Positions 30,798 to 53,032 of a stretch of DNA of 64,000 bases are shown here, piece by piece; position 1 is the first letter of the stretch, and each line of letters begins with the position of its first letter. Position numbers and translations under genes: made by a program. The DNA is from Brachionus koreanus (lineage: Eukaryota; Rotifera; Eurotatoria; Ploima; Brachionidae), in contig PJRA01000453.1 in the NCBI GenBank assembly GCA_016987375.1, forward strand, positions 527,638 through 591,637, written 5' to 3'. Below the pieces are notes generated by a model. That model saw only the letters and a list, made by a program, of their open reading frames with translations, had not been told where the DNA came from and did no database searches.

Positions 30798-31850
30798 CTA
30801 TTTATTAACCGAGCTAGTCGATCTACAATCATCATCAATCATTTGGCTACTTAGCATACTTTGACTTAAATTGCTGTAATTTTCAGCATCTTCAACATCA
30901 ACCTCTTCGTCTACATCTTCATCCTCATCAGCACCACTAAAATCACTATCTGAAGCTCTATTATCGATTTTCGATCTATCATCATCAGTTTTGACAATTT
31001 TATCAACATCCAAACCAGCATCTATTACTTTCATGGTCTTGGCTGCATTAACATCATTTTTAAGCTCTTCTAGATCACGCTTTTGTTTGGCACGTCTGTT
31101 CTGAAACCATGTGATCACTTGAGCAGTGGTCAATTGCAATTCATAGGCGATTCGATCTCTATCATGAGGAGACAGATACTTTTGAGCACTAAACCGCTTT
31201 TCTAATTCAAATATTTGATTTGCCGTAAAAGCGGTTCGATTTTTTCTTTTGCGTTTCAACGAATTGTCAGATATTTGTTTGACAATTGGCTTCAGAGTCT
31301 CACTTCCATCAAAGCTACTACTTGAACTATTTAGTCTTCTATTGTCCGAAAAATCCATCTTATCCACCTTAACTTCCTGTGGCGGCAAAGCTGATTTATT
31401 GATGTTGTTGGCCAAATTAAGCAATTTGTCCAATGGAGACACATTTTCATTCTCAGCTGAATTTATTCTGTCGCCATCGAGTCTCATTCTTTTCATGTTA
31501 AAATCATTTTCCATCGATTTGTGTCCATTTATCAATTGACTGTAATAGGTGGAGAAAAGAGCGAGTGAGTCTTCTGATTTGAACAAGTTTTGCATCGGGT
31601 TAAAGAACTGATTGAAGAAAATATTCGGATAGGAGCTTTTTAGGTAGTGGTACTTGGCCATGTCTAGTTCAGCATGAGGAACGGACTCGTCTGAGAGACT
31701 TGATGTCGATGTACTGGACACAAGCGATGCCGGACTAAGACTAGGACTTGTTTTCGGACAATCTGATTGATATTGGCTAAGTTTGCGCTTTTTATGCTCT
31801 GCACCAGAACTGTCCAAAATATCCTCAATAAAAAATGAGTTTTTTGGCAT
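30798..31850 (-). CDS. LBX: Lbx/ladybird-class homeobox transcription factor
   Basis: This 350-aa frame starts at the ATG at 31850. The homeodomain spans about residues 199-258 (KNRTAFTANQIFELEKRF, LSPHDRDRIAYELQL, AQVITWFQNRRAKQKRDLEE). The Lbx signature is the combination of ELEKRF, QKYLSP and TWFQNRRAK followed by KRDLEELK. An eh1-like repressor motif (SFFIEDIL) sits at residues 5-12, as in Lbx proteins that recruit Groucho. The C-terminus is strongly acidic (about residues 305-330). Lbx factors pattern muscle precursors and dorsal neurons in other animals. No intron is needed. Long AT-rich flanks on both sides (2.7 and 2.7-3.8 kb) could hold enhancers. Confidence 0.85.
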   Translation of the reverse strand: MPKNSFFIEDILDSSGAEHKKRKLSQYQSDCPKTSPSLSPASLVSSTSTSSLSDESVPHAELDMAKYHYLKSSYPNIFFNQFFNPMQNLFKSEDSLALFSTYYSQLINGHKSMENDFNMKRMRLDGDRINSAENENVSPLDKLLNLANNINKSALPPQEVKVDKMDFSDNRRLNSSSSSFDGSETLKPIVKQISDNSLKRKRKNRTAFTANQIFELEKRFSAQKYLSPHDRDRIAYELQLTTAQVITWFQNRRAKQKRDLEELKNDVNAAKTMKVIDAGLDVDKIVKTDDDRSKIDNRASDSDFSGADEDEDVDEEVDVEDAENYSNLSQSMLSSQMIDDDCRSTSSVNK

Positions 31851-34559
31851 GTTGCTTCTTTTTATTTTTCTAGAATAAATAAAAAATAAACATTAAAAAA
31901 ATCAAATATTTTTATTATGATATTTAATTGAGCCGATTAAAATTTGTTTTCAGAAAGGTTTTCAATGACAAAAAGTGAGGGTAGATAAAAAGAGTAGTTG
32001 AACGAAAATTAAGATAGAATTACCAAGGTAAATCCAAATAAATACGAATCAATAAAGGAAAAAAAAAGAAGGAAGCATTTGGTTTTAAAAATTTTAATTT
32101 CTTATTTTTCTTGTTTTGATTAATTGCTTGTTGTGTAGAATTTCGTATTAGACTATTTATATTATTTTCATTCAGCTAAAAAAAAATTAAAAAAAAATCT
32201 ATAAATGATAATCTAAATAAAAATTAGCAATTAAAAATTTTTTTAGAATAATAAAAAGTTTTCAAAAACGGAAAATATTTTAGCACAAATAGCTTGAAAA
32301 AAATTTTTTTTTTCTTATACATAAAAAATAAAAAAAAAAAAAAACAAACAAAATAAAAATAAATAAATTCTTTTTTTTGGTTTAAATTAGCCAGATAAGA
32401 AAACTTTAATTGATTTTAAAATTTATGGCTTTTTTTGAAAATTTAAAATTACAAAGTTTGTTTGATCTTTGCATCATTAGAAATCGATTTTTAGCCTAAA
32501 TGAATAGAGCGATAATTACTTTTTCTAATACTCACATTTATCATAAAAAAAAAAAAAAACTAATTTTTTTTGTTTGTTTGAGCCTATCGTCTAAGTTCTA
32601 AATCAAATTAAATGCTTATTTTTGTATTGAGATTTAAATGGCAAGGTGTTACTCGAAACAAATAAAGAATTTTCAATAATCGTAAAGTAATAAATAAAAA
32701 CTATTCGTTTGATCTCTAAGATAGATCTATTTTGCATCTCATTTAAAAAAAGCTAATAAAAATTTTTTTTTTGTTTTGATCTTGAAAGATATTTAGAAAC
32801 TAATTAAATTAATTGCCGTACAAAATTTATTACTTTTCGATTTAGTCATAGAAATAAATTTAAATAAAGACCTGTTAAAAAAATAAACCGAATTTGGAAA
32901 AATTAATCATTAAAATTTGATTTATTTACATTTTCTCTTGGGCCTTAATCGGTCAGTTGTTTAGGATTATTTTTCACGGGTTTGATTAGCCGTAACCAGT
33001 CATTCAATACTCACCTGTTGTGTCTAAATGTTAAATCTTATTAATTTAATGTTAGTTAACTAATTTTTTAGCTCTCTTTACGGACTTAGATCTAAAATCT
33101 TATGTGACTTTTTGCAAATTTTTTTTTTTTTCATTTAGAAAAAAATAATTCAAGCTTTTAAACCAAGAATTCCATTTAATTATCTAATTGTAAAAGACCT
33201 GGTTTGTGTGGGGATAAATTAAATGCATTCAAAAATTAGAAAAATATATAACTAATGCAAATTGATATGTATACCGATGGGATACCTAAGATGTAAAATT
33301 CTTATTCTCTTAAGATTAGAACGAAGGAGGCAAGATTTGATAGTTTGACTTAGAGATAAATTTCGATTTAGAATAATAAGCAAAAAATTTTAAAATAGCC
33401 TATCTGTTCTATAGAAATAGCCGATAAATGAAGACATCTAATTCAGTATGAACAAATGAGCATCTAAAAATGAAAATCATTTATCTCTTTAAGAAGTTAT
33501 TAATATCTAAATCAGTTGTTATTTATTTTTGTAATATAAATAAAACATTTAAAAAAAAAGACTTATCTTATCCCAAGTCTAACTGGTCATTTATCTTTCG
33601 GAACTTTTTCTAAATTGTTGATCAAAAGAATAATTATAAATGTCATAGTGAGTAAAGCAGAACAATTTGTTCTAGCTTTAGATCGAATCAATTTATTATG
33701 ATATTGAAAATTGATCAATTTTATTACAGTTGTTTTTCAAGATTTTAGAGCATAGATAAGATAGATTTATTATAGATAATAATACTCATCTATAAATGTA
33801 AAAATATGCCTAAAATAGACCGACTAGTTTGTTATCGCTCCAATTTCAAGCGCTTCATTGACCGCATCACTTAAAAATTACATAAAAAAATTCTTAGCGC
33901 GAGTCACTAAGGTAAAGAAAAAATAGTTTTTTTGATTTAATCAGAATATTTTATTTATATACTTAGAAACAAAAATTAATGACAAAACTAATCTACAACT
34001 GTTAATTTGATTTTTTTATTTGATTCGGTTTAAAAAAATTAATTTTATGAGTCATTAGCATGTTTAATATGTAGTGAGACATTTAAATACGGCCAGTTGA
34101 TTTTAAAAAGCCGATTTAAGAAAAAAAAGCTAATTTTTAAAACATTTAAAAATAATTATTTTTAATAAAATAGTAATTAAATGTATTATTATTTTTTTCT
34201 TTATTTATAATTTAAATAATTAAAAAATATGATAAGAAAGGTGTGAATAATAAAAACATGTAAGCGGATTATAATTCTTCTCAAATAAATACTATTTGAT
34301 TTCTTAGATTAGCCAAGATTAATTCATTTATATAATAAAAGCTAGATATTTTTGTATTTTAATAATCCAGAGACAAGAAAATAGCTCGAAAAAAAAATTC
34401 AATCCATTAACTATTAATCATTTTAAACGCATTTAACTACTATTCACAATTTTCTAATTTAAAAGATTAATTTATTTTCCTACATTTTCAATTAATTTAA
34501 AATGTATTGCTAATTTTAAAAATTAAATAGAAAATAATTTATATAAATTGAACTACAAA
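31851..34559. other. Upstream non-coding region of Lbx
   Basis: 2.7 kb of AT-rich sequence without recognisable genes or repeats, plausibly the Lbx 5' regulatory region. No specific binding sites are claimed. Confidence 0.45.
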
Positions 34560-34788
34560 TGGTCATGTTCTTAGAATGTCAACAGACAAAATTCCTAGAG
34601 TTGCACTATTTTGGACATCTCAAGGAATGAGAAATGCTGGAAGACCAAAGATGACCTGGAGGAGAATAGTTGAAAGAGATCCAAGAGAGATGAAACTCAC
34701 ATGGGAAAAAGCAGAAATTATCGCTAAGGAATGGGTGAAATGGAGGGAATGTGTGGACGCCTTATGCTTCACTGGGAGTAGAAGTTAA
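34560..34788 (+). mobile_element. LINE ORF2 C-terminal fragment
   Basis: The frame begins GHVLRMSTDKIPR and continues with AGRPKMTWRRIVERD, EIIAKEWVKWRECVDALC and a stop. This matches the common C-terminus of endonuclease/reverse transcriptase proteins of non-LTR elements (GRPKxTWRR...WRxxVxALC). Only about 76 codons remain. Confidence 0.85.
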
Positions 34789-34884: not shown

Positions 34885-35400
34885 TTATATGGGTATTCTA
34901 TAATAGCACCATGTCATTATTGTCGAAAATTGTCCAAAAATGTTTTTTTTTTCAATTTTCAATGTTCGACAATAACGACATGTCAGTATTCTATATAAAC
35001 ATGTTGATTACTTTAATTATTAAATTAAATACTTTAAGCAAAATTTAAGTATTATTTTAAGCGTTTATTTCTTTCTGTAATTATTTTTTAACATTTAAAA
35101 ATTTTATCATTTGGAATAAATTAAAAAAAAATTCAACAAAAAGAAATAAAAACATTAATTTAAATTTTTTTAAATCTCAAAATTTCCCTAAAAATATGTG
35201 TCCCTAAATTTAGAATTTTTTTTTCACATGTAAAAAGAAATACATTAATTATTTAAACTTTTTTGTTAATGATTCCCCCAAAAAACCATATGTTTTTATA
35301 GAATACTGATATATCGTTATTGTCGAACAGTGAAAATTGAAAAATATTACATTTTTGGACAAATTTTCGAAAAAAACGACATGATGCTACTCCATTTTGA
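34885..35400. mobile_element. Foldback element with hairpin-in-hairpin arms
   Basis: The arms about 34893-35000 and 35286-35395 are inverted copies of about 105 bp with scattered differences, separated by about 285 bp. Each arm is itself palindromic: ATGTCATTATTGTCGAA at 34911 pairs with TTCGACAATAACGACAT at 34965-34981, and a weaker version occurs at about 35312-35382. No reading frame lies inside. This looks like a foldback/MITE-type DNA element; no clear target duplication was seen. Confidence 0.7.
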
Positions 35401-35670: not shown

Positions 35671-37242
35671 ATGAGTTCTCCATCGATCTTATCATTTTTA
35701 GAATGTGTATCAAAATCTCCCGATAATAGAACAGATAATGTAAAAAAAATTTAATTGATTAAATTTTCAATTTTTTTCTAAATATTCAAGGAATTTATTT
35801 TAATCTACGAATATTTGAAAAAACTAGAAACTCTAGATGCATTTAAAGATTCAACTCTTCATTCCATGACTTATTCAATAAAAGTAAAACAATATCAGAA
35901 AGACAATTTTATATTTCAGTAAATAGAAAAAAAAAATTTTTTATTTTGTTCTAAAAATTAAAAATTAAGAAAAGGAGATTTGATTACAAGCTGGTTTATT
36001 TTATTCAGTGGTTCGGTTAAAATTGATGATCAAATTTTAAAACCGATTAACAAGTAGTCATTTTTTTAATAATTTTTTACTAGAAATAAATTTTACCAAA
36101 ATGCTGTCCAAGATTTGGTCGGAAAACTCATTTTCAAAATTTTCGATCAATTGACTCAATCGCTCTTGAGGATTCATTACTTTTAATAGTAAAATATTTA
36201 ATAAAATTCAATTTTTTCCTGTTTTAAATCTAAAACAAAGATTGATTATCATGGTGTTGAAAAGTTGTCTGAAGAAAAAAAATTGCCATCTAGTCCAAGT
36301 ATCATAACAGCACAGTCATGCATCGAAAACCTTAATGATAATCAAGAAAATATGGATATAATTGTTTTAAATGATGACAGTTCAAGTTGTCATTCCAAAG
36401 ACCTTGAGAACATATGTAACCAAGATGCGGAAATTATTTGTCTTACTGATGATGATGAAAATTATTATCACAGTGCATCTAATCAAAATGATGACCCTGA
36501 AGAAGATTCAGAATGCATCGAGTTGTGTTCAATTAATAAAAAATTACCACTAAGACGAGAAAATTTTGATTTTGATGACCAAGAAGTATTGGAAAGATGG
36601 CGAATTAAGAAAAGAGCTAATCCGAATGTAAATCTGTCTATGACCAATTATGGACTGAGGGCTTTTGGGGAAATTAGACTGGCACCTGAACGAAGATTCA
36701 AGCCAAATTTATTTTTCGATGAATCTCTTGATGAAACAAATTTATCTGATGAAGAAAAATATAAAATTGATCTTGAGGCACTTGAGCAAAAGATAAATTC
36801 TCAGTCATCTAGATTTAGCTTATTGATTGAAAATTATGATACTTTATTTAAAAAGTCTTTAGATATTTTAGATCAAAAGTACAAAAAAAATACTGAGGAT
36901 ATAATGCACCATTTTTGTCTTGAAAAAGATAAATTGATAGAAAATAATGACATTTGGTATCAGAATGAATTGAATAAGTTAAATTTTGACCGGAACAAGT
37001 TATTGAATCAGGCTGAAAGTAAAAAAAATAAAGCAGAAAAGGCTCTTAGAGACCTTTTTGATTCTGGTTGTTATGTTAAAGGCAAATTTAGAGAGTATGT
37101 AATCCTGGAGACTAAGCAACCCAAGGCAAGGCGACGGGCTTATTTTGATGATGGAAAGAGGTACATGCTTCTCTCCAAAAATCATATAAAAAATATTCTC
37201 ATTGAGGACATGATTTACGAATATTATTATGGCAAACCTTGA
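35671..37242 (+). CDS. Chimeric gene: RapGEF2-derived cyclic-nucleotide-binding-like N-terminus plus acidic/coiled-coil tail
   Basis: Five exons, 35671-35739, 35791-35918, 35970-36053, 36113-36188, 36241-37242 (452 aa), all GT-AG with 51-59 bp introns. Exons 1-4 are 69, 128, 84 and 76 nt, exactly as coding exons 1-4 of the RapGEF2 gene at 38002-53032, with the same phases. They align: SWFILFSGSVKIDD with CWYILLSGSVFIDG, and KFGRKTH with GFGRRST; the next exon opens IDYHG against IDYPK. The cyclic-nucleotide-binding fold therefore seems kept. Exon 5 has no second such domain, REM, PDZ, RA or GEF region. Instead it encodes an acidic linker (LTDDDENYY, PEEDSECIEL), a conserved-looking block (NYGLRAFGEIRLAPERRF), a coiled coil (about residues 270-380) and a basic C-terminus (PKARRRAYFDDGKRYM). 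I do not recognise this tail. It is tail-to-tail with RapGEF2, 759 bp apart. Confidence 0.85.
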
Positions 37243-38001
37243 TTGAAAATGTGTTTAATTTTTTTTTTTTGAGTAGAATTAACTTTGTATATAAAAATCA
37301 TGAAAAATCAACAGCCATTTTTTTTAATAATTTATTGTTGGATTGATAAAAAATTTACTCTTGAACAATTTTTGTACATTTAAATAAAGTAAAAATTAAA
37401 TTTAAAAATTTTTTATTTTTTAAAAATAATCGTTTCTGATTTTAATTTTTTTTTTCTTTAAAGATAAAACTTGAATTTTACAAAATAAAATAATAAGCGA
37501 TAAAAAAATAATTAATAATTACAGAGCGATTTCAAATCTTTCTGAATGTAAGTAAATTTTGGTAGAAATCAATTATAAAAAAAAATAATAATCAAGGTAA
37601 TTTATCTATTTAAATAAATATCAAATTGCACAAAAATAGCTTCTTGTTTTTTGTTTGGTTTTGTTTTATTTTTTTTGTTTTTTTTTTTGTTTAAAACACA
37701 GCCAATTGCATATACCATTCATAAGCGGATAGCTTTAGAATTTGATCAGTCTTTTAGCGGAACAATTCGGTTTTTTAGTACATTTTCAATTGTTAATTAA
37801 CAAATGGTACAAAATTTACAATAGAGCAAATATCCTAGTGGAAAATTTTCATAAAAATTTCAATTCAATAAAAATTTACAATAATTTAAAAAAAAATCAA
37901 TAAAATATTCAACAAAATTTCTCTCAAAAGTGATATAAAAATTTGTGACAAAAAAAATTGATAAAAATAATTCTTCATGTTTGGTCATATGAGCAACAAG
38001 A

Positions 38002-41000
38002 TCACACAGCTGATATTTGGTCTTCTTCATCTAAAAAAAAAAAGTTATATATTTTTTTTTCAATTTATTGTTTTCACATTTACCTAAATTGGTGTCTTTA
38101 ATGACTGGTTTGGCCAAATGCATTTCGCCATTAGGATGACTTTTTTTTGTCTTATTTCTAATATTGTGTTCTTGTCCTAAGTCTAGAAAAATAAATATAA
38201 AAAGACACTTTTAATAGAAAAAATAAATAAATTACATTTAGTAATCATAAAACTTCTCTGTTGAAAAATTGGAGAACATTGGTCCTGGTCAACATTGGAT
38301 GCCATGCTAGCCCGACCGGAATCAGCATCGCCGTGATGCATACCAGAGGACTTTATCACTGCTGTGCCATTAATTACAGTGGTCTGTGGACCTCTGGTTT
38401 CGTTTTGAAACTTTCCATTTAACTTAACTGTCGACACACTAGCATTCTCATTTGAAATTGAAAACTTGTTCAACGGTTGAGAGCTGCTCATTGATCGAAG
38501 CTTGGTTTTTGGCGAAAGAGGAACTGGCGGTGAAAAAGAACCAACTGCATTGTTGTGTAAATTTGTATTGGTGATCGAAGAAGATGATGAGTTTAGCGCT
38601 AGTCGTGAATTGCTCAAATGTGACAATGGCACCGACGAGGACGAAGAAGAATTTTTTACTGTTTTTGTTTTTGTCTCGGAGAGTGCGAGAAGTTTTTTCA
38701 TAGCTTCAGGAGAATGAGCACCTATGAATAAAATGATTATATTTTTTCTTAAAAAAAATTGGATTAGAGCTCATGCTGGATGAAAACAAGTTCTAGGTAT
38801 AAAAATAAACGGACAAACTTTTTTTTTTTAAATAAACTCAATTGTTTGATTAGAATGCCAAAAAAGAAAAAAAATTTTAAACAAATTTTCAATAAGTCAA
38901 ATGTTTATGCTCTTTTATTAAAATCAAAAAAAAAAACTTGTGTTTTAAATCAAATATTTATCTTTTCGGAATTAAAAATGTTTATAAAAAATCAGAGTTT
39001 TTTAAAAGTCACAAGTCTCAAGCCAAGTGCAAGTCAAAAACTTATAGTTTTTATTCTTTAAAAATCAATACAAATTTTTAATCATAAGAAAAAATTGTTG
39101 AAAATTTTCTTTTGTTAAAGAAAGTCAAATGTTAAAAAATTGGCTTAACTTGTAAATTTATATTTCAAAAATAATAAATTTAATTTTATAATTTGGAGAA
39201 TAAAGTAATAAAAAAATTTCAAGTTAATTCAAAAGACTATTTTTCTTTATATTAAATCGATATTGTTCAATACCTTTGGAACTAGAATCAGTGAACTTAA
39301 ATAATAAAATTCATTCCTTATTTTGATCTTCATTTTCTGGATATTGTGAGATTAAAATAAAACAAATATTCTTCTTTTTTAATAAATTAAGTAAATTAAA
39401 ATATTTAAAAATATACTGCAAGAAAGTGCAACATACTCTGTTGCACCTTTTTTATCTAACAATGACAAAAAATAAAACATCAATAAAATTTTAATTGACT
39501 ATCAATTTGATTTCGCCAAAAAAAAAAATTTGAAAATTTTATTTTAGATAAAAAAAATGCAACAAACTATATTGCACTTTAGTGCAGTATTTTTTTAAGA
39601 CTATTTTTTTTTAGTAAATTTATCAAAATAGGAAGAAATTTGTTTTGTTTGTATTTGAATTTTACAATTCCATTTTCTGGCTGTTTTATTAAAGTGTGTT
39701 GACTAGTGTTGGGGGCCGACCAAGAGGCCACGTGTCCGGCCAGAAAAAAAAAATACCGAGACCGTGGCAGGCCGGCGAAGCAGCGACCAACAAAAAGACC
39801 GACCGAGAAATGGCCGGCCAAATTTTAGAAGACCGTGTGGTGGCCGGCCTACTATCGGCCAAAATAAATATTTAGTTATTAAATGTCTAAATTATAAATA
39901 AAAGATTTTTAAAAAATATATAAAACATTATTTTAAAAAATTACCTAAAATAAAATAAAAGATAAATATAAATATAACTCTTTATGCCAATAAATTTTTT
40001 TAAAAATCTAACTAAATTTTTATATTGGACCGTGAGGTGGCCGGCCGGTCTGCACACGGTCGGCCGTTTAACGGCCTTTCTGTTGGCCAGCCACCATACG
40101 GCCGGTCCGTCACTTGGCCGGCCACCACACGGTCGGTCCTTTTAAAGACGGCTCACATACGGCCGTTAAATTCACGGCCATAAAAGGCCGTTTATAGCGA
40201 CCGGGCAAAGTTGACCGTTACCCAACACTAGTGTTGACCAGCAAATATCATGTTTTAATCCACATCAACTTCAATAATTAAGATAAAAAAAATTGACCTA
40301 TGAAGATTGAAAAAAAAATTTTAAAATTCGTACTTGGACTCTAATTTTGGACTTTTAAACCACCCTGTAAAAAATTTTCTAACAGAAATTCATGTAAAGA
40401 AAAAACCTATTTTGTATCGTTTTTTCATTGAAAAATTCAATCGGTTCAAATAAAATTTTTTTTTTCTAAACTAATAAAAAAGCAAAAAAGTTGGCTTATT
40501 AAATTTTTTTTAAAATTAATTTCTTTAAAGTAATTAAATTAAATTTTTTTTTTTGTATTTGATGAAAACCCTCAGACGTTGACTTTAGTTTAACTCTTTT
40601 CTCTACTTAACTATTTATTTTTCAAGTTTGTCCATTAGTGAATTTTTAAAAGCACAAATCAATCATTTTTTTTTCAAAATCCTTAACCTTTTGTCATTCG
40701 AAAGAAGACGAGCTAGATGAGCTTATAAATGAGTGTATTCTAAATCGATTTTTTTTGCCTTCAAAATTAAAATTAAATAAATAGTTGAGCTTTTTTTCTT
40801 ACCAAACAAGGAGCTTTTCTGCGAGTTTAGAATTCCGTTTCCGGTAGAGACCCCGCTAATAGCATTATTGACCATTGATCCAGTAGAAATATTGTGCATG
40901 TTGCTGTTGTTTAGAACATTGATGCTACTAAGGCTGTTTGCATGAGAGTTGCATGGCGATCCGCGTTTTCTCAGCGTATTGCCATTCGTCGAATTTTCCA

Positions 41001-44000
41001 AAGTTGACGAAAAAAGACGCAGTCGCTCTTCAGATGTTTCCAAATTTTTCGGCAAATTGTTCAAGTAATGCCGCACTTTTCTCACCATTACAGACTTAAT
41101 TTGATCAAGTTTAAAAAATGTCTAACATAAAATTATTTAATTTACTTCTTCATATAGCTTTTTTATGTGGTCGGCCTTTATGTTCAAACGGGTAAACTGA
41201 TGCGAACCAAAGCCGTAGTTGCGCTCGATTAGCGAGGGATTTGTGCAGCCAAATAGACTGAATATGATGCTGTGGCTAGTAGGCACGTCTTTCATTGACG
41301 TCAAATCGAATGGTGAGCTTGTCATCTGCACAATTGAGCGAACTGTTTTGGAAATTTTTCTCAATTTTTCAAAATTTATCAGCTCGTCTTCTAGAGTGCC
41401 GCCTGATTCATTTGTAAAATACAAATCTTTTTGACATACAGGAAAAAATGGTATCTGAAACAAAAAGTTAAGATAATAAATTTTTTTTTTTTTTTTTCAT
41501 TTTTATTTAAATTAAAATAAAATTACAATTGGAGCTTGAACTGATTCGCTTTTAAGCAAATTGCGGTACTTGCTCATGTTAAGTGATGGATCCATGATAG
41601 CCTTAAGTTCGGAAAGTATTTTTTTATTCTTGTTTGAGACTTTTTCCCATGTTTCCTTCAAACGTGTCACATTCGTATTGTCTAGGCCACTCACAATGGC
41701 AAAAAGAGAGTTGAAATTTTTGCATTTTTCACATACATCTGCAATTTGAATAAAATTTTTAATTATTTTAGCTCTTTTGAGAATGTTCGATTCGCGCAAT
41801 ATTTCGTTAATAACCCAGTAGAGTTCTTGATTGGAAAGCTCGGCAAAATTTTTCAAATTTTTGAAACCATTTTCAGTCTCTTTGTTGAATATTTTTTCAA
41901 TATATTCACTTGATTCGATTGATTTGAATATACAATAGTCTCTGAGAGTTAGTTGAGCTGCCACTTCAATTGGATCAAGTTGTAGAAAAGTTGTGTTCCA
42001 GTCTTTTAATAGCTCTTCAACAGCAGTCGAATCACTTAGAAACTGTTCTGATGAAACATTTGATTTTAAATAGTAGCGGGCATTTAGTGGTAACTTTTCG
42101 GCCAGGTTGTTTATTTGATCTGGCAATCGTTTTTGCTTTATCAAACGATCTTGGTCAACACTTACTTCACACAAAGCATATGCACTTAAATTACAAAATA
42201 AATTATTAACTTAATTAGTCCACGATTCTTTAGTTTTATTAAAACGCTCAGATTATTTGCAATTTTTTTACTCTCCTTATGCGCTCCTTGTGGAGCATAG
42301 TATCATTTGATTTCTATTTTAATTTTATATCAAAAGGTCTAAGGATTGTTCTGCAAAATGAATCACTTTTATTTAGGTTTAATAAAAAAATTTTTGTTAA
42401 AAAATGTTAGTGGCAACTTTTCAGTCAGATTGATTATTTGATCTCGCAATCGTTTTTGCTTATCAGCTCATCTTCTAGAGTTTTTAAAGAGGTCTGTTTT
42501 GGATGATAGAAATTTTTTATCAAATACTACAATTTGCCAAACAATACTTAGATCTTTAGACAAAAATTTAATTTAATTATAATTTTTGAAGTATTTTCTG
42601 AAAAATTTACATGCAAAGAATGAATACATAAAGTGATGAATTACCCTTTACTCAAATTTATTAAATAAAAAACTAAAGAATCTGTATTAATTTTTATTCT
42701 TTTTATTTTTCAAATTGTCTGAAATCATCTATGGACAAATATTGACATGACTCTAAACCCTTGCTACCTTGACTGAATTCAATAAAGCATGTGAACTAAA
42801 CAATCAAGCAAATTTTTCAATTTTTGTCAATTTGTTATAACAGGATCGACAATGTTCTCTCTTATGTGCATTAAAATAAAAAGGGAATCAAAAAGGAATT
42901 TTGACATTCCAATTGTTAAAAGATATTTATAAGTCAAACAGCTTCAAAACTCGACCCTTTAATAGTGCTAAGCCTCTTTTTAATCTTTTTTCCATGAAAA
43001 TAAGCATATTTTGCAACAAAAATTAATTAATTTTAATATTTTTTTGATTTCTGATTGAAAAAAATAAAATTTATTAAGCTACAAAAAAGCATAAAGCGAC
43101 GAAAAATCCCTCAAAATTATGATTGTTAAAATAATATTTCAATTATTTGAGCTAATTTTTTTTTTTTTAAAGGAGTAAAAAAATTATCAAAATTGTCTTA
43201 CTTGCTTCCAATGTCGTCGATAATGTTAAATTCATTTAGAGCTAGCATTACAACCTCTTTTGCCGTTGTTTCTTTATGAACTACCAAATATTTAAATGTC
43301 TGATCATTTTTGTATATTTTGAGAACATGTTCGCTCAAATATTGTTGTTGCTCCTGTAAAGTCATTTTAGCCAGACTGACATCAATCTGATTTGACTCAT
43401 TATTGACATTACTAGCACTATTAGTTCTGCTCAATCCTGTTGAATAATCAGTAGCTCTGTTAATTGCACTGACCGAACCAGAAAGACTTGAAGCAGTGCT
43501 CGAGTGAAAATTAGACAACGAAGGAGATGGTGAACGAGTTATGGACTTTAGCGATGGAGCAGACGAATCGCCATGTGACAGCGATTCGAGTTCTTTCGAA
43601 TGAGCCTTTCGATTAAGTCTTCCCAAAAATTTTTTCAACTGATTACTCTGACCACCAGTTTCCTTATGATTGATCATTTTGAAGTGATTTTTGTCTCTTG
43701 ATTTGTTTCGCGGTGTCATGCTATTTGGCGGTAGCGGTGGCATTGAGCCGATTGACTTTTTAGCCGGTTCATTGGACGTTGCCTCTTGGCCACTTGAATC
43801 CTTTCTTGAATCTTGTATATAATCAATTATGTACGAACCATTTGGATAGTTTTTTTTGTTTCTGTGCGGCGATTTTTCCGGATGAAGCATCATTTCGCTG
43901 TAGCCAATGGGGTTGTACTTGAGCTTGATGCTCGAATGGGTCGAAGACTTTAGAACTTCGATTGCGTTGGAAAGCGGTATGTGCTGAAATGAATGAGAGT

Positions 44001-47000
44001 TTACCTCGAGTATCTGATCGCCTTTTCTCATTCCCAATTCATAGGCCTTGCAGTCTTTGTCTACTTTGGACACAAAAATTCCATAGCCTTTCTCCCATCC
44101 GCCTTGAATCGAGAACATGAGACTCTCGTCTCGTTTAGACCGGGCCAAAGTGATCACCCTTGGCCTAGACTTGGTCGATATCGCTATATTCAGCACTCTG
44201 TACTGATCGTGCATTTTTTCCCTATGCAATTGATCTTGAAATTTATCTACAAATTCGTACAAATCTCGATTTTTTTCAAAGTCATTAAAATGATTTGTTA
44301 TCCACTCAAGAATGATGCGATAGACTTTTTTTTTGACATTAGTCTGTGTCAATGAGCTAAAGTAGTCACTCAATTTTTGGGATACATTGACAGGATTTTT
44401 GATAAAAACTCGATATGTAAGCAAAAAGTCTTGGATATAAGTTGGGTCGACTAGTGAATAGGAATCGTCCATAATCAGACGTTCTATTAGTTTGTCCGGC
44501 GTAGCTTTTAGTACTATCTCACCGGTCTTGTCACTTGAGTTGTTTATGGGCCTGAATTCACATATCATTACCAATTTATTATTTTCATAATAGGATTTTG
44601 TGTTCTCTTTGCTCTTGCTTAGAATTTCATAGTAGTCGTTTTGTTTTACAAGGACAAATTGACAGTCATCGCATTTCGTTCGCATGACACCCTCGTGATA
44701 CACCGATTCTAGAACTGGTGCTGTTCCAAAGCTTTAAATAAAAATATTTATAAAATTTTTTTTTCTTTTTATTAAGTCATTTTATTACTGATCACCAACG
44801 TTGTAGACTTTAATAGTCGAGTCCGGTAGAAAACACTCAACTTGACCATTGAGTACAACGGCCCATGAATCCAATTTTTCGTTATTGTCCAATACAATTG
44901 TGTCCGCTTTATCCACAATTCCCAGAACCATACAAGAACATAATTTTCGTGTAATTGGCTCAGTTAAATTGCTGAACGCCTTTAAGATTTAAAGTAAATA
45001 AATAATCCGAAAGAACAGGCTTTGTGTTTTGTGTGTGTGGGGGGGTAGGTAGAAATGAAGAAGGATTAGCAAAAGATTAGCCTAATGACCATTGAGAGAG
45101 TCGTCAAAAAAAAAAAGCTTATGAGTATTTCGATAAATGTGTAGATTGTATCGAATGTACGTCCAAATAAACAAAAATATTTTTTTTAAATTTAATAAGC
45201 TGTTAACAATATAATTAAGATGCTTATTATAAATAAATGCTTGATTTGTGGTCTATGATAATAAAGCCAAAGCTAGTTTCCCTCGAATGGCTTAAATTTA
45301 GATCACTTAATATATTGACACTTCCTAATGATTAATTTTGAATACGAGTCAATACGTGACCTGAATTAAGTATAACTTTTTCAAAAGTTAATTCTATTTT
45401 AACCTGTTTTTGAATTCAAGTCAAAAAACTAATAAATAAAAAACATATTTTTGTAAGCAATAAATTTTTTTTGGCGGAAATTAACCGTTTAGATTAACTT
45501 AAGATAATTGAACATATTGTTATTTAAATTGCTGCTAAGTTTGACCTAGATTGCTTATGGCAGCTGTGCCGAAATAAATAATATTTGGACTCTATAAATA
45601 AAATAAATGATGGCAAAATTATTCCAATTCAATCGATTGAGCTAATTGAACTATTTGGTAGTTTTTAATGATTTTTATTTAATTTTATATTTTTGCCATA
45701 ATCAAATAATTAAGTAGATATTAAAATTGGAAAAAAAATCTCCCCGAATAAAAGAAACTCGGTACTATTTAACACTTAACAGGATCGGTGTCAATTTTAC
45801 ACATTTTTCATTCCAAAAAAAACAAATTTTTGTTTAAAATATTTATTTTTAATTACAGATTTAGAAGGTTTTAGGTGGATATAATTTATTCTTTAAAAGA
45901 AATATGAGAATAAAGAAGGCTTAAAATTGTTACCAGTCCTTTGAGTGTTACAAGAGAATTAAAAAATCATGTCTCATGTAAAACAGAAGGTCAATTCAAT
46001 ATTATAGAATTTAAATGACTTTTAAAAAAAGTTTTCATAAGTTATCTACTAGTCACCTTTTCCAACTAGTCATAACTTGTACTTAAACCAGACTTGTTAG
46101 GGTTTTTTTTTTCATTACTTTTATGTAAATCTGAAAAATACCAAATAAGAAAACGTAAAACGAAAATTTCTTTTATTTGAGTCACTTTTTGGGCTGAAAA
46201 CTTTTTCGAATAGAAAAAATATTTTTGTTGACAAAAATTTTTAAAATTTGATGAAATACGGTAAGGGATTTTTAAAAAGTAAAAAAAATTTTTTTTAAAT
46301 TTTTGATCATTTTTGAATATTTTAAATGAAACTTCCTAATGATTCAATTGATTAGTGTTGTGTCAATTTTTTTATGAAAATTTTTAATTATTATCGTTAA
46401 GGGCGAGATCAAGGTTTCACTTTATGCTAAGATAAAAATTTTTTTTTTTTGTAAGTTCAATCAATTGAACTTATTGAACTAAGTAGCTAGATATTTTTAT
46501 TAATGGAAATAAATTTTTTATGAAAAAATTTTAAAATAGAATTTTTAAAAAATAAACACATCTTAGAGTTTCTAGTTTTAAATTTAGGTTTTTGTTTTTA
46601 TTTTTAAATATACCTGAATCGGAATCTTAAAATTTATTGATTCATTTTACGTTTTTTTGTTTAAAATTTTTACGGATTCTTTGATACATGGTTATTCTAG
46701 TTAAATTGAGGATAAATTTACTAATAAACAATTATGTATTAAAAAAAATACAGTTAAAAATTCATCATTAATAGCATATTTTGGTCTAATGAAAATTATT
46801 TAAATGATCGGTGCTCAGATATTTTCCAATTTATAAATTTGGCATTGCATTTTTAACTTAAAGAATTATTTCTAAAAAAAGTTTACTTATTATTTTGAGT
46901 CATAAAATTTTGCGTTTTTTAAAAGGCAGATTTTTGGAATCTTTGTAATTCTAAAACTTTTAATCAAATTAAAGGCTAAAATAATAAAAAAAAACAGAAT

Positions 47001-50000
47001 TGAATGCTCTTCAAAATGTTATTTAATATGAACAAAATGATTTTAATTTTTTGTTTTTTAATTCTAAAAAATAAGTACTTAAGATGAAAATTTTGGTACT
47101 GATACGTCATTATTGGAAAAAAGGCCAATCGTCATAATGTCTAATGAAAGGTGAAAGATTTTTTTAAAGTAAGAACGAATGAATCATTCATTTCATGTAA
47201 AATATCCTTTTTGTTCAGCGGAAAACTAAGTTTATTTCTTCAAGATAACGTTAGACCTCATACATCTAGAACAATGGCAAAAATAGTAGAGTTGGACGGG
47301 ATAAAACTTCTTTCTCATCCATTATATAAAGCTCTTTTTAGAGGACGACATTTTCCTAACTTAGACCTAGTTGAATAAGGCTCTCGTGAATTTTTTGACT
47401 CCAAAAGCCGTGAATGGTCCTAGAAAGGAAACGAACTACTTGCTGAATGATGCCTTAAGGCTATAAGGCGTAATGCTTTATATTTTGAAGATTATCAACA
47501 TGCTTTTTTTAATTGATAAATTGAAAAAAGTTAAAATAAAACGCAAAATTTTTTGACTCATCTTAATATTTATTTTTATGATTTTTAATTAAAACAATTT
47601 TAACCTAAAAAAAAAAGAAAAACAAATAAAAAAAATTGAACATTTAAATTTTGGCATTTAAAATCTAAACTAAACTTATTCAATTATTTCTCTAATAAGA
47701 AAACATTTTTTATTTATTTTAACACAAGAAGCACCAAACAATTTTTAATGTATTTTTTTTTAACTCAAAAATATTTTTAAAAAAAATCTAAATAATCTTA
47801 CAAAATAATATCATTTTAAAGAAAATTTTAAAATCTTTATTATTCAAAAAAGATATATTTGTTTGAAAAATCCATTCAAAACATACGAGGATTTAAAAAT
47901 TTTTGCTTGGTGCTTCTAGTGTTGAATTTTTCATAAAATTCAATGAAAACTAAAAACAACTTAAAAAGAAAACAAACAAAAAAATGATTTTTTAATTTCT
48001 CACAAGCTTAACATTGTTAAAATGACGCAAATAATATTCGAAAATAGTGTTTTATATTGAAGCTAGTCTAATATTCACAAATAATATTTAATGGATAAAT
48101 AGCGCAAACTACACGCTTGATAAGTAGCCTGTTAGATAGATTATTTTCACTAAATTGTACTGTTACTTTGATTGAACGAGCGTTGACGCTACTTAATGTA
48201 AAATTTTTTTTTAAAAAAAAATTTATCTCTTGGGCTCTCTCAACCACTTTAAAAAGTCTGTATCAAATTTAAATTTTTGATGTTGAAGATAAAACTAAAA
48301 TTTGAAATGTATTCATAATTTTTTAGCATCCTAAAGCAAACATGTTTATCATATCATGCCTACTTTTCTAATCAAAAACAAACAGATAAACATTTTACAT
48401 GTAGAAAAAATTTGTTCAAGTTAATAAACAAGCTAGAACTTACTGGCAATGTTTGCATGAACTCGACCAAATTGTCTATGTCTTCATCAGTTCGGTCCTT
48501 GGGGTCCTTTTCGAGCACTTCTCGGACCGCGTCTTTAGTTATCATTTGTATAGATGATTGCTCGGAGGCGTCGTCGTTAATGCTATTGCTATTGGATGCA
48601 GTTATACCTGTGGTGTTGTATCCGCCGTGCAAACTGACCGTATTTGCCGACGAACACGACAACATGGACGCTTGATTTTGATTCATTAAATTTTGATTAT
48701 TTACAATATTCGAAATTAAAGAGGACGATTTGGACGAGCATATTGATGACGAACATGATTGATCGTGTTGTTGTCTCAACATTCGTTTAGCACTAATTGC
48801 CTCATCTAAAGTGTCTATGGTGTTTATACTAGCATTTATATTTGTACAACTACTAATTGTTTGTTGACTTGTGTCTAATGTTAATGACTCGTTATGAGTT
48901 GATGTGAACGCTCTGTTCTTAGATGATTGCTTTGGCTTGCTAGCCGACTTGTTTAAATTACCTGTTAGAATACAAATGGATTTTAGTTGCTGGTCTTTGG
49001 AGGGCGACTCGTTCGCATCGAAATCGCTCTGTTCAGTGCAAGCTATGTTGAGAATGTGCGGGTCTTCGTCCTCGCGCGCCTCCTCGTCAAAGTTGCCCGT
49101 TTCTTCGTGCATCGAGTTGGCAATCAATATCGGACTGTTGGACGACGACGAGGCCAGCGTCTTGAACGTGGTCAAGTGCTTGCTCTCTTGATCATGATGG
49201 CTTATGCGATGCTCTTCGGCGAACATGTACTTGTGGAACGATTTGTGGTGCGATTGCATTTGCTGCGATTGTATTTGTATGGTGGTTACTTGATTGAGTA
49301 TTGTCGAATCGTTTTGTTCATTTGGTTTCGGGTAATCGATCTAGACACAACATAATTAGTGTAACCCAATAGCGTTGTTTTAGATAAGTTGAAATTTAAG
49401 ATTTTAACAAGTTTGCTAGTCGAATGCAAAATATGTCATTAGAATTTTCAAGTAGATAATAAAAAAAAATCGACTCTGAATTCTAAAATTGCCTCATAGC
49501 TCTTCATTTTAAATCAAGATAAATTTAAAATTAGCTTGTGTATGTAAATTAATAGTTCCTTAGCGAATCATGATCTATTTGGACTTAAATTTGTCTAAAG
49601 AAAGCATTCAAACAGCTAAAAAAAAGATAAATGATGCTCTTTAACATTTTTTTATGTTTGCCTAAATTGAAAAATTAATAAATTTGAATAAAAAAATGCT
49701 TTTTAAATTTTCGTTTGATTAAAAAAAGGGCTTCTAATGTAAATAACAACTCTCGAGTCTTTGATGTATAAGTCTAGAAAAATTTTTAAAGTCACGTCCG
49801 CACCACTAAAATCTAAATTTTTCACACTTATTTGATACAAATAAACAAAAAAAAATTTTTGAATTCTTGTCAATTTCATGTACCACTTCATATAAAAGCT
49901 TTATCTCACTTGAATGCGGACTAAAACACGCATTTTTTGGAAAATAAAGAAAAAAAATAAATTAATTTAATTCTAAAAAAGTATCAATCAAATAATGAAA

Positions 50001-53000
50001 AATGATACACCAGATATGATTGTTATTTAGATAGACAAAGTAGCATTGGATTTTATTTTAGAATTAATCAGTTTTACTTCCTTGCATTAGAAATATTCAA
50101 AATTTTGATAGATTGTTACGCACAATTTTTTTATTTATTTATTTATTTTTTTTTTTGAAAAATATAGTATTAATTTAAATTATAGAATTCCTGAGCAACA
50201 AGAATAGAAGCAATTTTCACAAACTGAAATTCATTTGAAAAAAATTGCTCATCACAATTAAAAATTTAGGTTAGATTTCTGTAAAAACAACCCAGAAAAT
50301 AAGGGTCATATTAATCGCCAGCTATGAAGTATTTGTCACATGAAGGAAAAATGTCTCATTATTAACAATGCATCATGCATGTATGAAAAGCTGTATAGCA
50401 CGCACTACCTATTTCCTTTATTCAATGAAATTCAATCAAAAAAATAAATTAAATTACATCATTTTATTTCCTCATGAATTTAACTAGTTCAAGTGGTCTG
50501 CATTCGACATAGACATTATTAAAATATTTTAAAATTGCTTACAACTAGCATTTCGGAGGTTTCTAGAACTAAGCAGTCGTGTACTCGCAACAAATGGCCA
50601 GTTGATCTTCGTCCAAATCTAAAATTCAGCAATTAAGTCCGAACTAAAATTTGAATAAAATAAATAATCCTACCCAGATCGGGGCAAAAACATAGAACCG
50701 TCTATAAACACAGATCCAGATAGTAAAATATACCAACAGTTAATTACATCTCCAGATCTAAAAAAAAAACAAAAGTTATTCTTTTCGAATTAGAACAAAT
50801 AGAGCTTTATCAATGAGCCATCATTCTAACCTTCTGAGTAATTGTTTGCTTTAAAATGAAAACTAAAAAAAAAATAACTTAGAATAATGACCAGACTAAT
50901 TTGCTCTATCTCTTTTAAAAAATAAATAGAAATTTAGTAGTAATTAGAATTTAAACTAGAACTCAAAACTCATAAAAAATGTTGAATTGAATGATTTTGA
51001 TGATAAAATTTAGATTAGATTTTTTGAATAGATTAGCTCGAGGATTAGGTGAATAAATAGAAAAATAGTTTAAAATTTAAATTTGTCAAGTCTAAAATTT
51101 TCTAGATCCGAAAAACAATTAGATTGTATAATATCCTTCCGCGAACCATTGTGTGTTATGTAATCCTTTTGTTAGAGTCAAGTATTAATACAAGATATCT
51201 TGACAATTTGAAGCAAAAATATTCAAGACTAACAAATGGTTCATTAATCTAAAATTTTTTATTTGACTGACCATAGTTTCTAGTTGATTTAATTTATTAG
51301 TTATATAACTAAGAAGCATTTTTTTTTAATTTTTTTATTAACACCTTAAAAAAAGAATGGTCATGAATGGCTTCAATTTATTTTATTGCCAAGTTTTACG
51401 AGCAATAAATTTGGCTTTTCATAATTTTAGTTTTGTAGAACGCTAATAAAGTTAATATTTACTGTTAAAGTGATCATGTTCACCTAAATCAGGTAACTAA
51501 GCCTACATAGATTTAGCTCGTTTAAGTCTCATAAGAAATTCTAAAAACATATAACAATGCTAATTGTGCATTTATGAATTCTTATTTGTAGAGATTATTT
51601 TTTAAATAAAAGACTTGATTTTTTCTATTTTTTTTTTAATTCAAAATTGGACAACTGACTATTTTTTGTATAATTCTCAAAATTTTTGAATATTTTTCAA
51701 TATTATTTAAAAGATAATTTCTTAAATAATTTCTAATGTTAGCCTTTTTTATTTTAACTAGTCTATGTTTGTGTACTATTTGTTTGATTGTTTATAGGCT
51801 ATGAGTTTAAAATTAAATTCTTAATTGAATTTAATTATTCTAATGCTAATAATGAATTGATATTAAGACTTAAGAATTTTATTAAGCTCAGTTTATACAT
51901 ATATTTGAAATCTAGTTCAAAATAATTTCTCAACAAAGACGTCAAACTGTATTTCCTGGCAAAGAATGCTTCATTTTTTATTTTGATCAATTAGAAACAA
52001 AATAGGAAAAATGAGAATCTTTTAATTCTAATTACTTATTGTGTATAGTTTTCCTCTTATGTAACAAATTTGTCATTCAAACCGATGATGCTAGCCAAAT
52101 AATAAAATAGCTAATTTAACACTTAATTTAATTTTAGGTCTAGAAAAATGATTTTTACTTGTTATGGTACCTTGGGGAAATCATTTTTTTTACAACAAAA
52201 AAAAAAGAATTAAATATTTAAATCTTTAACCGAGAGTGAAGTTTAAAAAAATTAAGATACTATTTTTAGCTGAATAAATATTTCTAGTTATAAGATTAAA
52301 TGCCTTGAAAAAATAAATTTTAAAATAGCGCAAGTTTAATTAATAAATTAAGAAAAAATCAAATATAAATGAAAAATTTCAAATGTAAATATTGGCAATT
52401 TGAGAAGGATTTAATTTTCGTGACTGGTACAAAACATCAACTATAATGGATTAATTAAAATTTAGTTCAAACAAACTTAGAAATATTAATTCTCATCGTT
52501 GAACTAGACACAAAATCATATAAACTTATTTCAATTAGCTTAAATACAAATTTGTTTAGCAATAAATTAAATAATTTTAATATATATTTTTTTTAATTTT
52601 TGTCTGGTATTACAGTTCTTCTTTGACATAAACTAAATAGATCATTTTCTAATCATCATTCTAACTAAATTTAATATAAAAAAATTCTATAATTTTAAGA
52701 CAAATAAAAAGTATGAGCAAAAAAAATTATTTTGAAAAATTTTATTCAATATAATTGAAATAATGACTCACCTGTATAATACATCATTGGCCTCATGTTT
52801 TTCGTATTTAATTGTTTTGCATAGAGATCGAATGGCCGAATCGCGTAACGAGGACAAAGCCTCTAGACTTTTTAAATTAGCGCTTATCAGCGATAAATCC
52901 TTGATTGAAAAAAAAAATTTCAATTAATTCTAATTTTTGAAATGAAGCATTTTATGGGCGTACTTGTTGAGACCGCTCGTGGACCGGTCGGAGCAAGCTC

Positions 53001-53032
53001 TCACGAAACGCCGGGTCTATGTACGAAGCCAT
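38002..53032 (-). CDS. RAPGEF2: Rap guanine-nucleotide exchange factor, PDZ-GEF (RapGEF2/6)
   Basis: Thirteen coding exons: 53032-52964, 52899-52772, 50757-50674, 50618-50543, 49340-48444, 44979-44789, 44731-43202, 42184-41527, 41454-41146, 41094-40803, 38721-38236, 38182-38084, 38030-38002. All junctions are GT-AG and in phase; the product has 1615 aa. Domains: first cyclic-nucleotide-binding-like fold about 24-120; low-complexity linker; VLEKDPKDRTDEDIDNLVEF before the second such fold about 419-510; RasGEF N-terminal (REM) about 563-641; PDZ about 669-753 (GYGIFVSKV, GDQILEVN); RA about 950-1060; CDC25 GEF about 1065-1290 (KNFNSLFAIVSGL, WEKVSNKN). The C-terminus DQISAV-stop matches the PDZ ligand of vertebrate RapGEF2 (EQVSAV). 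It activates Rap1 at junctions and synapses. Introns 2, 4, 5, 7 and 10 are 1-3.5 kb. Confidence 0.96.
39416..39587. mobile_element. Short TIR element (MITE) in RapGEF2 intron 10
   Basis: Imperfect inverted termini of about 30 bp: CTGCAAGAAAGTGCAACA at 39416 against CTGCACTAAAGTGCAATA read back from 39587. Both are flanked by TA, the Tc1/mariner target duplication. The interior is AT-rich and non-coding. A diverged relative of the interior and right flank occurs at about 58900-59215. Confidence 0.65.
39704..40230. mobile_element. Non-autonomous hAT-type element with perfect 8-bp target duplication
   Basis: Termini are perfect 10-bp inverted repeats, TAGTGTTGGG at 39704 and CCCAACACTA ending at 40230. 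The flanking octamer GTGTTGAC is identical on both sides (39696-39703 and 40231-40238). An 8-bp duplication and a TAGTGTTGGG-like terminus are hallmarks of hAT transposons. The 527-bp element has GC-rich subterminal blocks (39712-39860 and about 40028-40220) dense in GGCCGG/CGGCC motifs on both strands, around an AT-rich core. There is no transposase frame. It lies in RapGEF2 intron 10. Confidence 0.92.
42405..42480. pseudogene. Composite fragment of RapGEF2 exons 8 and 9 inside intron 7
   Basis: 42405-42462 matches part of exon 8 at about 42084-42141 (GGCAACTTTTC, TTATTTGATCT, GCAATCGTTTTTGCTT) at roughly 85-90%. The next 20 bp (ATCAGCTCATCTTCTAGAG) match exon 9 at about 41378-41397 with one difference. 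The two pieces are not adjacent in the gene and intron 8 is missing between them. Confidence 0.75.
47205..47510 (+). mobile_element. Mariner-type transposase relic in RapGEF2 intron 5
   Basis: The frame reads LSLFLQDNVRPHTSRTMAK then LDGIKLLSHPLY, the mariner catalytic HDNARPH region and following VLPHPPYS-like segment. A stop follows and eroded C-terminal residues (RRNALYFEDY) in another frame. It lies opposite to the host gene's strand. Confidence 0.8.
47723..47921. mobile_element. Putative small foldback element in RapGEF2 intron 5
   Basis: Inverted termini CACAAGAAGCACCAAACAA (47723) and TTGCTTGGTGCTTCTAGTG (ending 47921) bracket about 160 bp of AT-rich sequence. TTAA precedes the left end and TTGA follows the right, reminiscent of a TTAA target duplication with one change. 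Family uncertain. Confidence 0.5.

Follow-up and report, generated by a model that had tools for sequence, protein, structure and literature searches.

A five-exon gene beside RapGEF2 in the rotifer Brachionus koreanus: a probable partial duplicate of its neighbor with a different tail

A five-exon gene in the window (the whole stretch of Brachionus koreanus DNA that was analyzed, 64,000 nt) begins like RapGEF2, a gene that adjoins it, and continues with sequence unlike RapGEF2, which raises the question of how the two parts came to be joined and what the resulting protein may do. The reading preferred here, at a probability of roughly 0.6, is that the gene arose by an old partial duplication of RapGEF2 at the DNA level and that its product is now a non-catalytic adaptor. 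The gene is called the chimeric gene below, and feature coordinates are collected in Table 1.

Table 1. Coordinates of the chimeric gene, of parts of its protein and of the adjoining RapGEF2 gene within the window
Feature	Position	Strand	Remarks
Exon 1, chimeric gene	35671-35739	+	69 nt, followed by phase 0; counterpart of RapGEF2 exon 1
Exon 2, chimeric gene	35791-35918	+	128 nt, followed by phase 2; N-terminal portion of the cyclic-nucleotide-binding-like fold
Exon 3, chimeric gene	35970-36053	+	84 nt, followed by phase 2; exon closest to RapGEF2 (13/28 residues)
Exon 4, chimeric gene	36113-36188	+	76 nt, followed by phase 0; phosphate-binding cassette region FGRKTHFQNFRS, with R replacing the canonical E
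Exon 5 including stop codon, chimeric gene	36241-37242	+	IDY junction, then tail (333 aa counted from exon start)
SUMO-interaction-like motif 1, IIVLNDD	36358-36378	+	Residues 159-165
SUMO-interaction-like motif 2, IICLTDD	36433-36453	+	Residues 184-190
CIEL in ECIELCSI	36514-36525	+	Residues 211-214; CIEL or CIEF in P0001-P0003; SIM-like, fails the consensus
Predicted antiparallel helical hairpin	36748-37065	+	Tail residues 170-222 and 229-275; AlphaFold2
Conserved C-terminal module	37024-37239	+	72 aa; 31/72 columns invariant in 5 sequences
AATAAA, possible polyadenylation signal	37383-37388	+	141 bp past the stop of the chimeric gene
RapGEF2/PDZ-GEF gene	38002-53032	-	13 coding exons, 1615 aa, modeled by hand; intact, probable parent
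RapGEF2 exons 1-4	53032-52964, 52899-52772, 50757-50674, 50618-50543	-	69, 128, 84 and 76 nt; phases 0, 2, 2 and 0

The chimeric gene (35671-37242, forward strand) encodes 452 aa in five exons, with all 452 codons open. Its four introns (51, 51, 59 and 52 bp) are all of the GT-AG type and have the length of about 50 bp that had been predicted. Exon 5 lies inside a stop-to-stop run of 345 codons, compared with 101-143 codons for the longest run per sequence when 20 first-order Markov sequences of 64 kb were simulated. By codon scores trained on RapGEF2, the coding frame was favored for exons 2, 3 and 5 and not for exons 1 and 4. A scan for bacterial promoters, which is not applicable to an animal gene, returned no excess over shuffled sequences.

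Several elements were recorded on the upstream side of the gene. An inverted repeat of 84 nt (34926-35009 and 35283-35366, 87% complementary, spaced by 273 nt) lies just upstream of it. A frame of 78 residues (34552-34788, forward strand) ends 0.9 kb upstream; it has at least 136 matches in the genome at E <= 1e-3 (150 of 277 candidates scored) and no match in Pfam, and it looks like the 3' coding end of a non-LTR retrotransposon. A homeobox gene lies on the reverse strand at 30798-31892, where an open frame encodes a homeodomain (Pfam E 1.1e-20).

The adjoining gene carries the Pfam domains cNMP_binding, RasGEF_N, PDZ, RA and RasGEF (the last at E 5.9e-55). The original prediction had claimed that coding exons 1 to 4 have the same lengths (69-128-84-76 nt) and the same phases (0-2-2-0) in the chimeric gene and RapGEF2, and both gene models agree with this. 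It had also aligned the two proteins through the cyclic-nucleotide-binding-like fold: their N-termini of 119 residues indeed align without gaps, with 39 residues identical and 68 positive (blastp E 3e-21), and the alignment has a z score of 12.4 against 20,000 shuffles. All four exons contribute identities (5/23, 12/42, 13/28 and 9/26 for exons 1 to 4). Both exons 5 then open with IDY, as had been noted, encoded by ATT GAT TAT in the chimeric gene and ATC GAT TAC in RapGEF2. The reading frame was said to have stayed open despite strong protein divergence, and the open codons and the identity of one-third bear this out.

The first 140 residues were searched against all six frames of the entire 83-Mb genome (five candidates scored). 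At E <= 1, matches elsewhere than in the gene itself were confined to exon 3 of RapGEF2 (E 0.002) and one locus on C12 (E 0.04). For a common blastp comparison, 12 loci were taken, consisting of five of the 40 cyclic-nucleotide-binding matches (the C12 locus included) and seven RasGEF loci. Residues 1-122 of RapGEF2 scored 84 bits, the C12 locus 33, the second cyclic-nucleotide-binding-like domain of RapGEF2 28 and another frame 19; the second-best locus lies inside an uninterrupted frame of 461 residues. The claimed derivation from RapGEF2 therefore holds among the loci compared, and RapGEF2 remains a better match than any other locus in that comparison. On the chimeric protein, the sole Pfam match above its cut-off is cNMP_binding (28.5 bits against a cut-off of 27.5, E 1.5e-6). 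No REM, PDZ, RA or RasGEF (CDC25) domain was found in Pfam at E <= 10, and no second cyclic-nucleotide-binding-like domain was detected in the chimeric protein.

Of 122 residues, 42 are common to RapGEF2 and the chimeric gene; a provisional human RAPGEF2 N-terminus shares 36 with the chimeric gene and 67 with RapGEF2. These counts fit a fast-evolving, old copy, as far as they can be read from three sequences, which do not date the duplication. Among solved structures, the top match by sequence for the chimeric protein is Epac2 (E 1.5e-7), which would suit an N-terminus derived from Epac or from another cyclic-nucleotide-binding family. Epac2 is also the first match of the RapGEF2 N-terminus (E 2.3e-16), whose 24 matches include no chain of RapGEF2 itself, and the structure library therefore cannot separate the two origins. 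Against an Epac-type origin, a RapGEF2 gene on the same contig matches the entire N-terminus and has identical introns, and such an origin is regarded as highly improbable.

The two genes are convergent, with stop codons ending at 37242 (forward strand) and 38002 (reverse strand), 0.76 kb apart, in keeping with the inverted position at the 3' end of the parent that had been described. The first four RapGEF2 introns measure 64, 2014, 55 and 1202 bp; the second and fourth have the length of 1-2 kb originally ascribed to all of them, and the first and third do not. Exon 5 is 897 nt long in RapGEF2 versus 1002 nt in the chimeric gene. A GC-rich palindromic element of the GGCCGGCC type (39690-40260) was observed in the RapGEF2 intron that precedes exon 11. 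It has at least 128 matching pieces in the genome (40 of 64 candidates scored), some of them adjacent in both orientations, and looks like a foldback or MITE-like element.

In the chimeric gene, a diverged version of exons 1-4 of RapGEF2 and of the first codons of exon 5, with introns in place, is joined to the tail within one exon. Parental exons and intron positions are thus kept and are followed by joined coding sequence unlike the parent, the pattern that defines a partial duplication at the DNA level, and on these features of the sequence an origin of this kind from RapGEF2 is very probable. A retroposed chimeric gene was considered and rejected because the parental introns have not been lost; with all four intron positions kept, the copy is unlikely to be a processed one. 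Copying is taken to have run from RapGEF2 to the chimeric gene because RapGEF2 is the complete, domain-rich gene. In the proposed course of events, the stretch from the RapGEF2 start codon into exon 5 would have been duplicated, inverted and placed beside the 3' end of its parent, at a time before the split of the Brachionus lineages compared. The copied exon 5 would have run into other sequence or been rebuilt, and the tail may accordingly have been picked up or have grown from exon 5.

Beyond the IDY junction the two proteins part. The original prediction had the remainder of RapGEF2 replaced by about 330 residues; the stretch found is 333 aa long, and no RapGEF2 match to it falls under a blastp E of 1.5, which amounts to no alignment. 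Genome searches found no second copy of the tail and no donor gene, and the tail appears to be single-copy. Searches of the tail against Pfam, NCBIfam and PDB sequences and with Foldseek gave no significant match, and VIA-align on the tail model returned common helical arrangements only. This region had been described as an acidic linker, a coiled coil and a basic tail. The linker stands (residues 120-222, with 25 acidic and 6 basic residues), and for the rest a predicted helical hairpin together with a conserved C-terminal module is the better description. In the AlphaFold2 model of the tail, made from six sequences, the mean pLDDT is 60 for the whole model and ten-residue blocks of the hairpin are mostly above 90; the C-terminal segment is predicted, at lower confidence, as two strands and a helix. 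Invariant columns of the C-terminal module were counted with omission of P0002 (described below), from which part of the module is missing; in three sequences, 50 of 68 positions are invariant.

One variant, compatible with the preferred reading, would have the tail descend from RapGEF2 exon 5, with a disordered linker drifting in sequence and a coiled coil arising de novo. It agrees with the IDY at the start of both exons 5, with the predicted disorder of the opening stretch of the new exon and with the outcome of the donor search in the genome. Since the tail, and hence its C-terminal module, does not align to RapGEF2, descent from exon 5 is considered rather unlikely.

Relatives were sought in a protein search in which only the 7,998 candidates with the most shared words were scored. 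P0002, from Brachionus plicatilis, matched at 54% over the whole query (E 6.4e-126), P0001 at 68% over 71% of the query and P0003 at 61% over 66%; P0004 was insignificant (E 3.4). A profile search with the tail added P0005 (B. calyciflorus, 45%) and P0006 (34%). This search admits only proteins of limited length, for which reason P0002 is missing from it. When P0006 was searched back, the chimeric gene was its top place in the genome (E 8.6e-21) and the next was at E 0.002. A search with residues 385-452 returned only P0001 (eight candidates), although P0003 carries the module; having missed P0003, it provides no evidence that the tail is absent outside Brachionus. These relatives, with B. plicatilis and B. 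calyciflorus among their sources, lend support to the view of the gene as an old, functional duplicate, and the gene is no novelty of this species.

P0002 joins the same N-terminus to the same tail, and 70 of 103 comparable N-terminal residues agree. Missing from it are 19 exon 2 residues, a piece of 10 residues and, within the C-terminal module, a further 23; two of these three stretches are present in P0001 and P0003. Its cNMP_binding score of 20.8 bits is below the cut-off of 27.5, and it has no RasGEF match. The gaps and the low score point to a faulty protein model or to decay of the gene in B. plicatilis, and the faulty model is the more probable of the two. P0001, P0003, P0005 and P0006, in their predicted forms, consist of the tail alone with no N-terminus, so the joined form is seen in two species only.

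The predicted tail-only forms of P0001 and P0003 would also suit two misjoined genes, in which exons 1-4 are a RapGEF2 pseudogene fragment and the tail is a separate gene with its start in intron 4 or exon 5. The tail frame is open from 36205, in intron 4, and the codon scores of exons 1 and 4 point the same way. Against this, the four intron positions are kept, 119 codons run without stop or frameshift despite heavy divergence, and P0002 unites both halves with its N-terminus conserved to the extent given above. Moreover, the first ATG of the tail frame, at 36352 (residue 157), lies downstream of the P0001 and P0003 starts. Misjoining is therefore judged quite improbable.

As REM, PDZ, RA and GEF domains were not detected, the chimeric protein is not expected to act as an exchange factor for Rap in the manner of RapGEF2. 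For the alternative role of an adaptor the odds are put at about even. In an adaptor, the cyclic-nucleotide-binding-like fold would serve to bind proteins and would not bind nucleotides in the canonical way, and the helical hairpin and C-terminal module would provide self-association or binding to a fixed partner. The phosphate-binding cassette reads FGR in the chimeric gene, RapGEF2 and P0002, and FGE in all five other cyclic-nucleotide-binding loci that were read (two of the five being one gene). The canonical FGE glutamate is absent from the cassette of the chimeric gene and the conserved cassette arginine is kept, by which the protein may bind some ligand. The literature is divided on nucleotide binding by the parent. 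According to PMC4032295, PDZ-GEFs bind neither cAMP nor cGMP, whereas in PMC5611689 human RapGEF2 cDNA gives cAMP-dependent ERK activation that a point change in the nucleotide-binding domain abolishes. PMC5611689 also places the cAMP site at residues 124-238 and describes constitutive ERK activation in HEK293 cells by cDNA without residues 2-242.

From this constitutive activation, as described in PMC5611689, the human nucleotide-binding region is inhibitory in cis, which gives some ground to the main functional rival of an adaptor, a competitive regulator. Its free N-terminal domain would bind RapGEF2 or the N-terminal partners of RapGEF2 in trans and so lower or relocate Rap signaling, and the descent of the domain from RapGEF2 speaks for it as well. 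However, just a third of the N-terminal residues are kept (39/119), the well-kept C-terminal module would be needless in a mere carrier, and the cAMP site as placed in that paper lies beyond the part present in the chimeric gene. A competitive regulator is thus considered unlikely.

To return to the adaptor, two SUMO-interaction-like motifs in the acidic linker would dock sumoylated, probably nuclear, partners. The consensus of a SUMO-interacting motif (SIM), as given in PMC10765799, is a V/I-V/I-x-V/I/L core with an acidic flank. Two strict patterns are present in the 100-residue linker, and two or more were obtained in 15 of 20,000 shuffles of the linker and in 79 of 20,000 shuffles of the whole 452 residues; the RapGEF2 protein has zero strict patterns. 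P0001, P0002 and P0003 retain the two sites, with the first core of P0001 reading LIVL, outside the strict pattern. Invariant columns of the linker number 19 of 34 in three motif windows versus 5 of 58 elsewhere. Because the pattern and the windows were picked after the alignment had been viewed, the motifs are a lead and not proof, and docking of sumoylated partners through them is offered tentatively, at somewhat less than even odds. The original prediction had proposed either a competitive partner of RapGEF2 or an independent nuclear protein, and the motifs lean towards the nuclear protein, so far as sequence patterns can indicate. A more far-reaching proposal is regarded as doubtful: a rotifer gene family would have recruited a domain that regulates a Rap exchange factor as the input of an adaptor that reads SUMO, with a C-terminal module unmatched in the Pfam, NCBIfam and PDB searches, and a sensor fold of the Rap/cAMP type would thereby be connected with sumoylated partners in the nucleus. 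If the SUMO reading is true, Brachionus would be a test case for a sensor domain changing pathway.

No account of the chimeric gene was found among the papers listed on rotifer RapGEF, on RapGEF2/PDZ-GEF duplication or on Brachionus lineage-specific genes, with the literature on chimeric genes barely covered. A close counterpart is P0002, an apparent ortholog with the same N-terminus and the same tail, which differs in the three short stretches absent from its model and in its name, 'rap guanine nucleotide exchange factor 6-like isoform X1', which implies a GEF. With no exchange domain found in P0002, this name is likely an error. To proteins with SUMO-interacting motifs, the likeness consists of two V/I-V/I-x-L cores with acidic residues in a linker predicted to be disordered; the difference is that no known domain was found in the tail of the chimeric gene.

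Partial duplication is a familiar source of genes, and the chimeric gene resembles other such chimeras in its parental part with introns and its unrelated coding sequence. It differs from them in that no donor of its tail was found in the genome. Its descent is readable despite a protein identity of one-third because four intron positions are shared and an intact parent lies 0.8 kb away. Compared with RapGEF2/PDZ-GEF itself, the chimeric gene has another tail and short introns throughout, and REM, PDZ, RA and RasGEF domains and the second fold were not detected in it. It has in common with RapGEF2 the N-terminal cyclic-nucleotide-binding-like fold, the four intron positions with their phases and the IDY that opens exon 5. 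Without the catalytic domains of RapGEF2 and with a conserved, unmatched module in their place, it illustrates how a signaling domain may become an adaptor.
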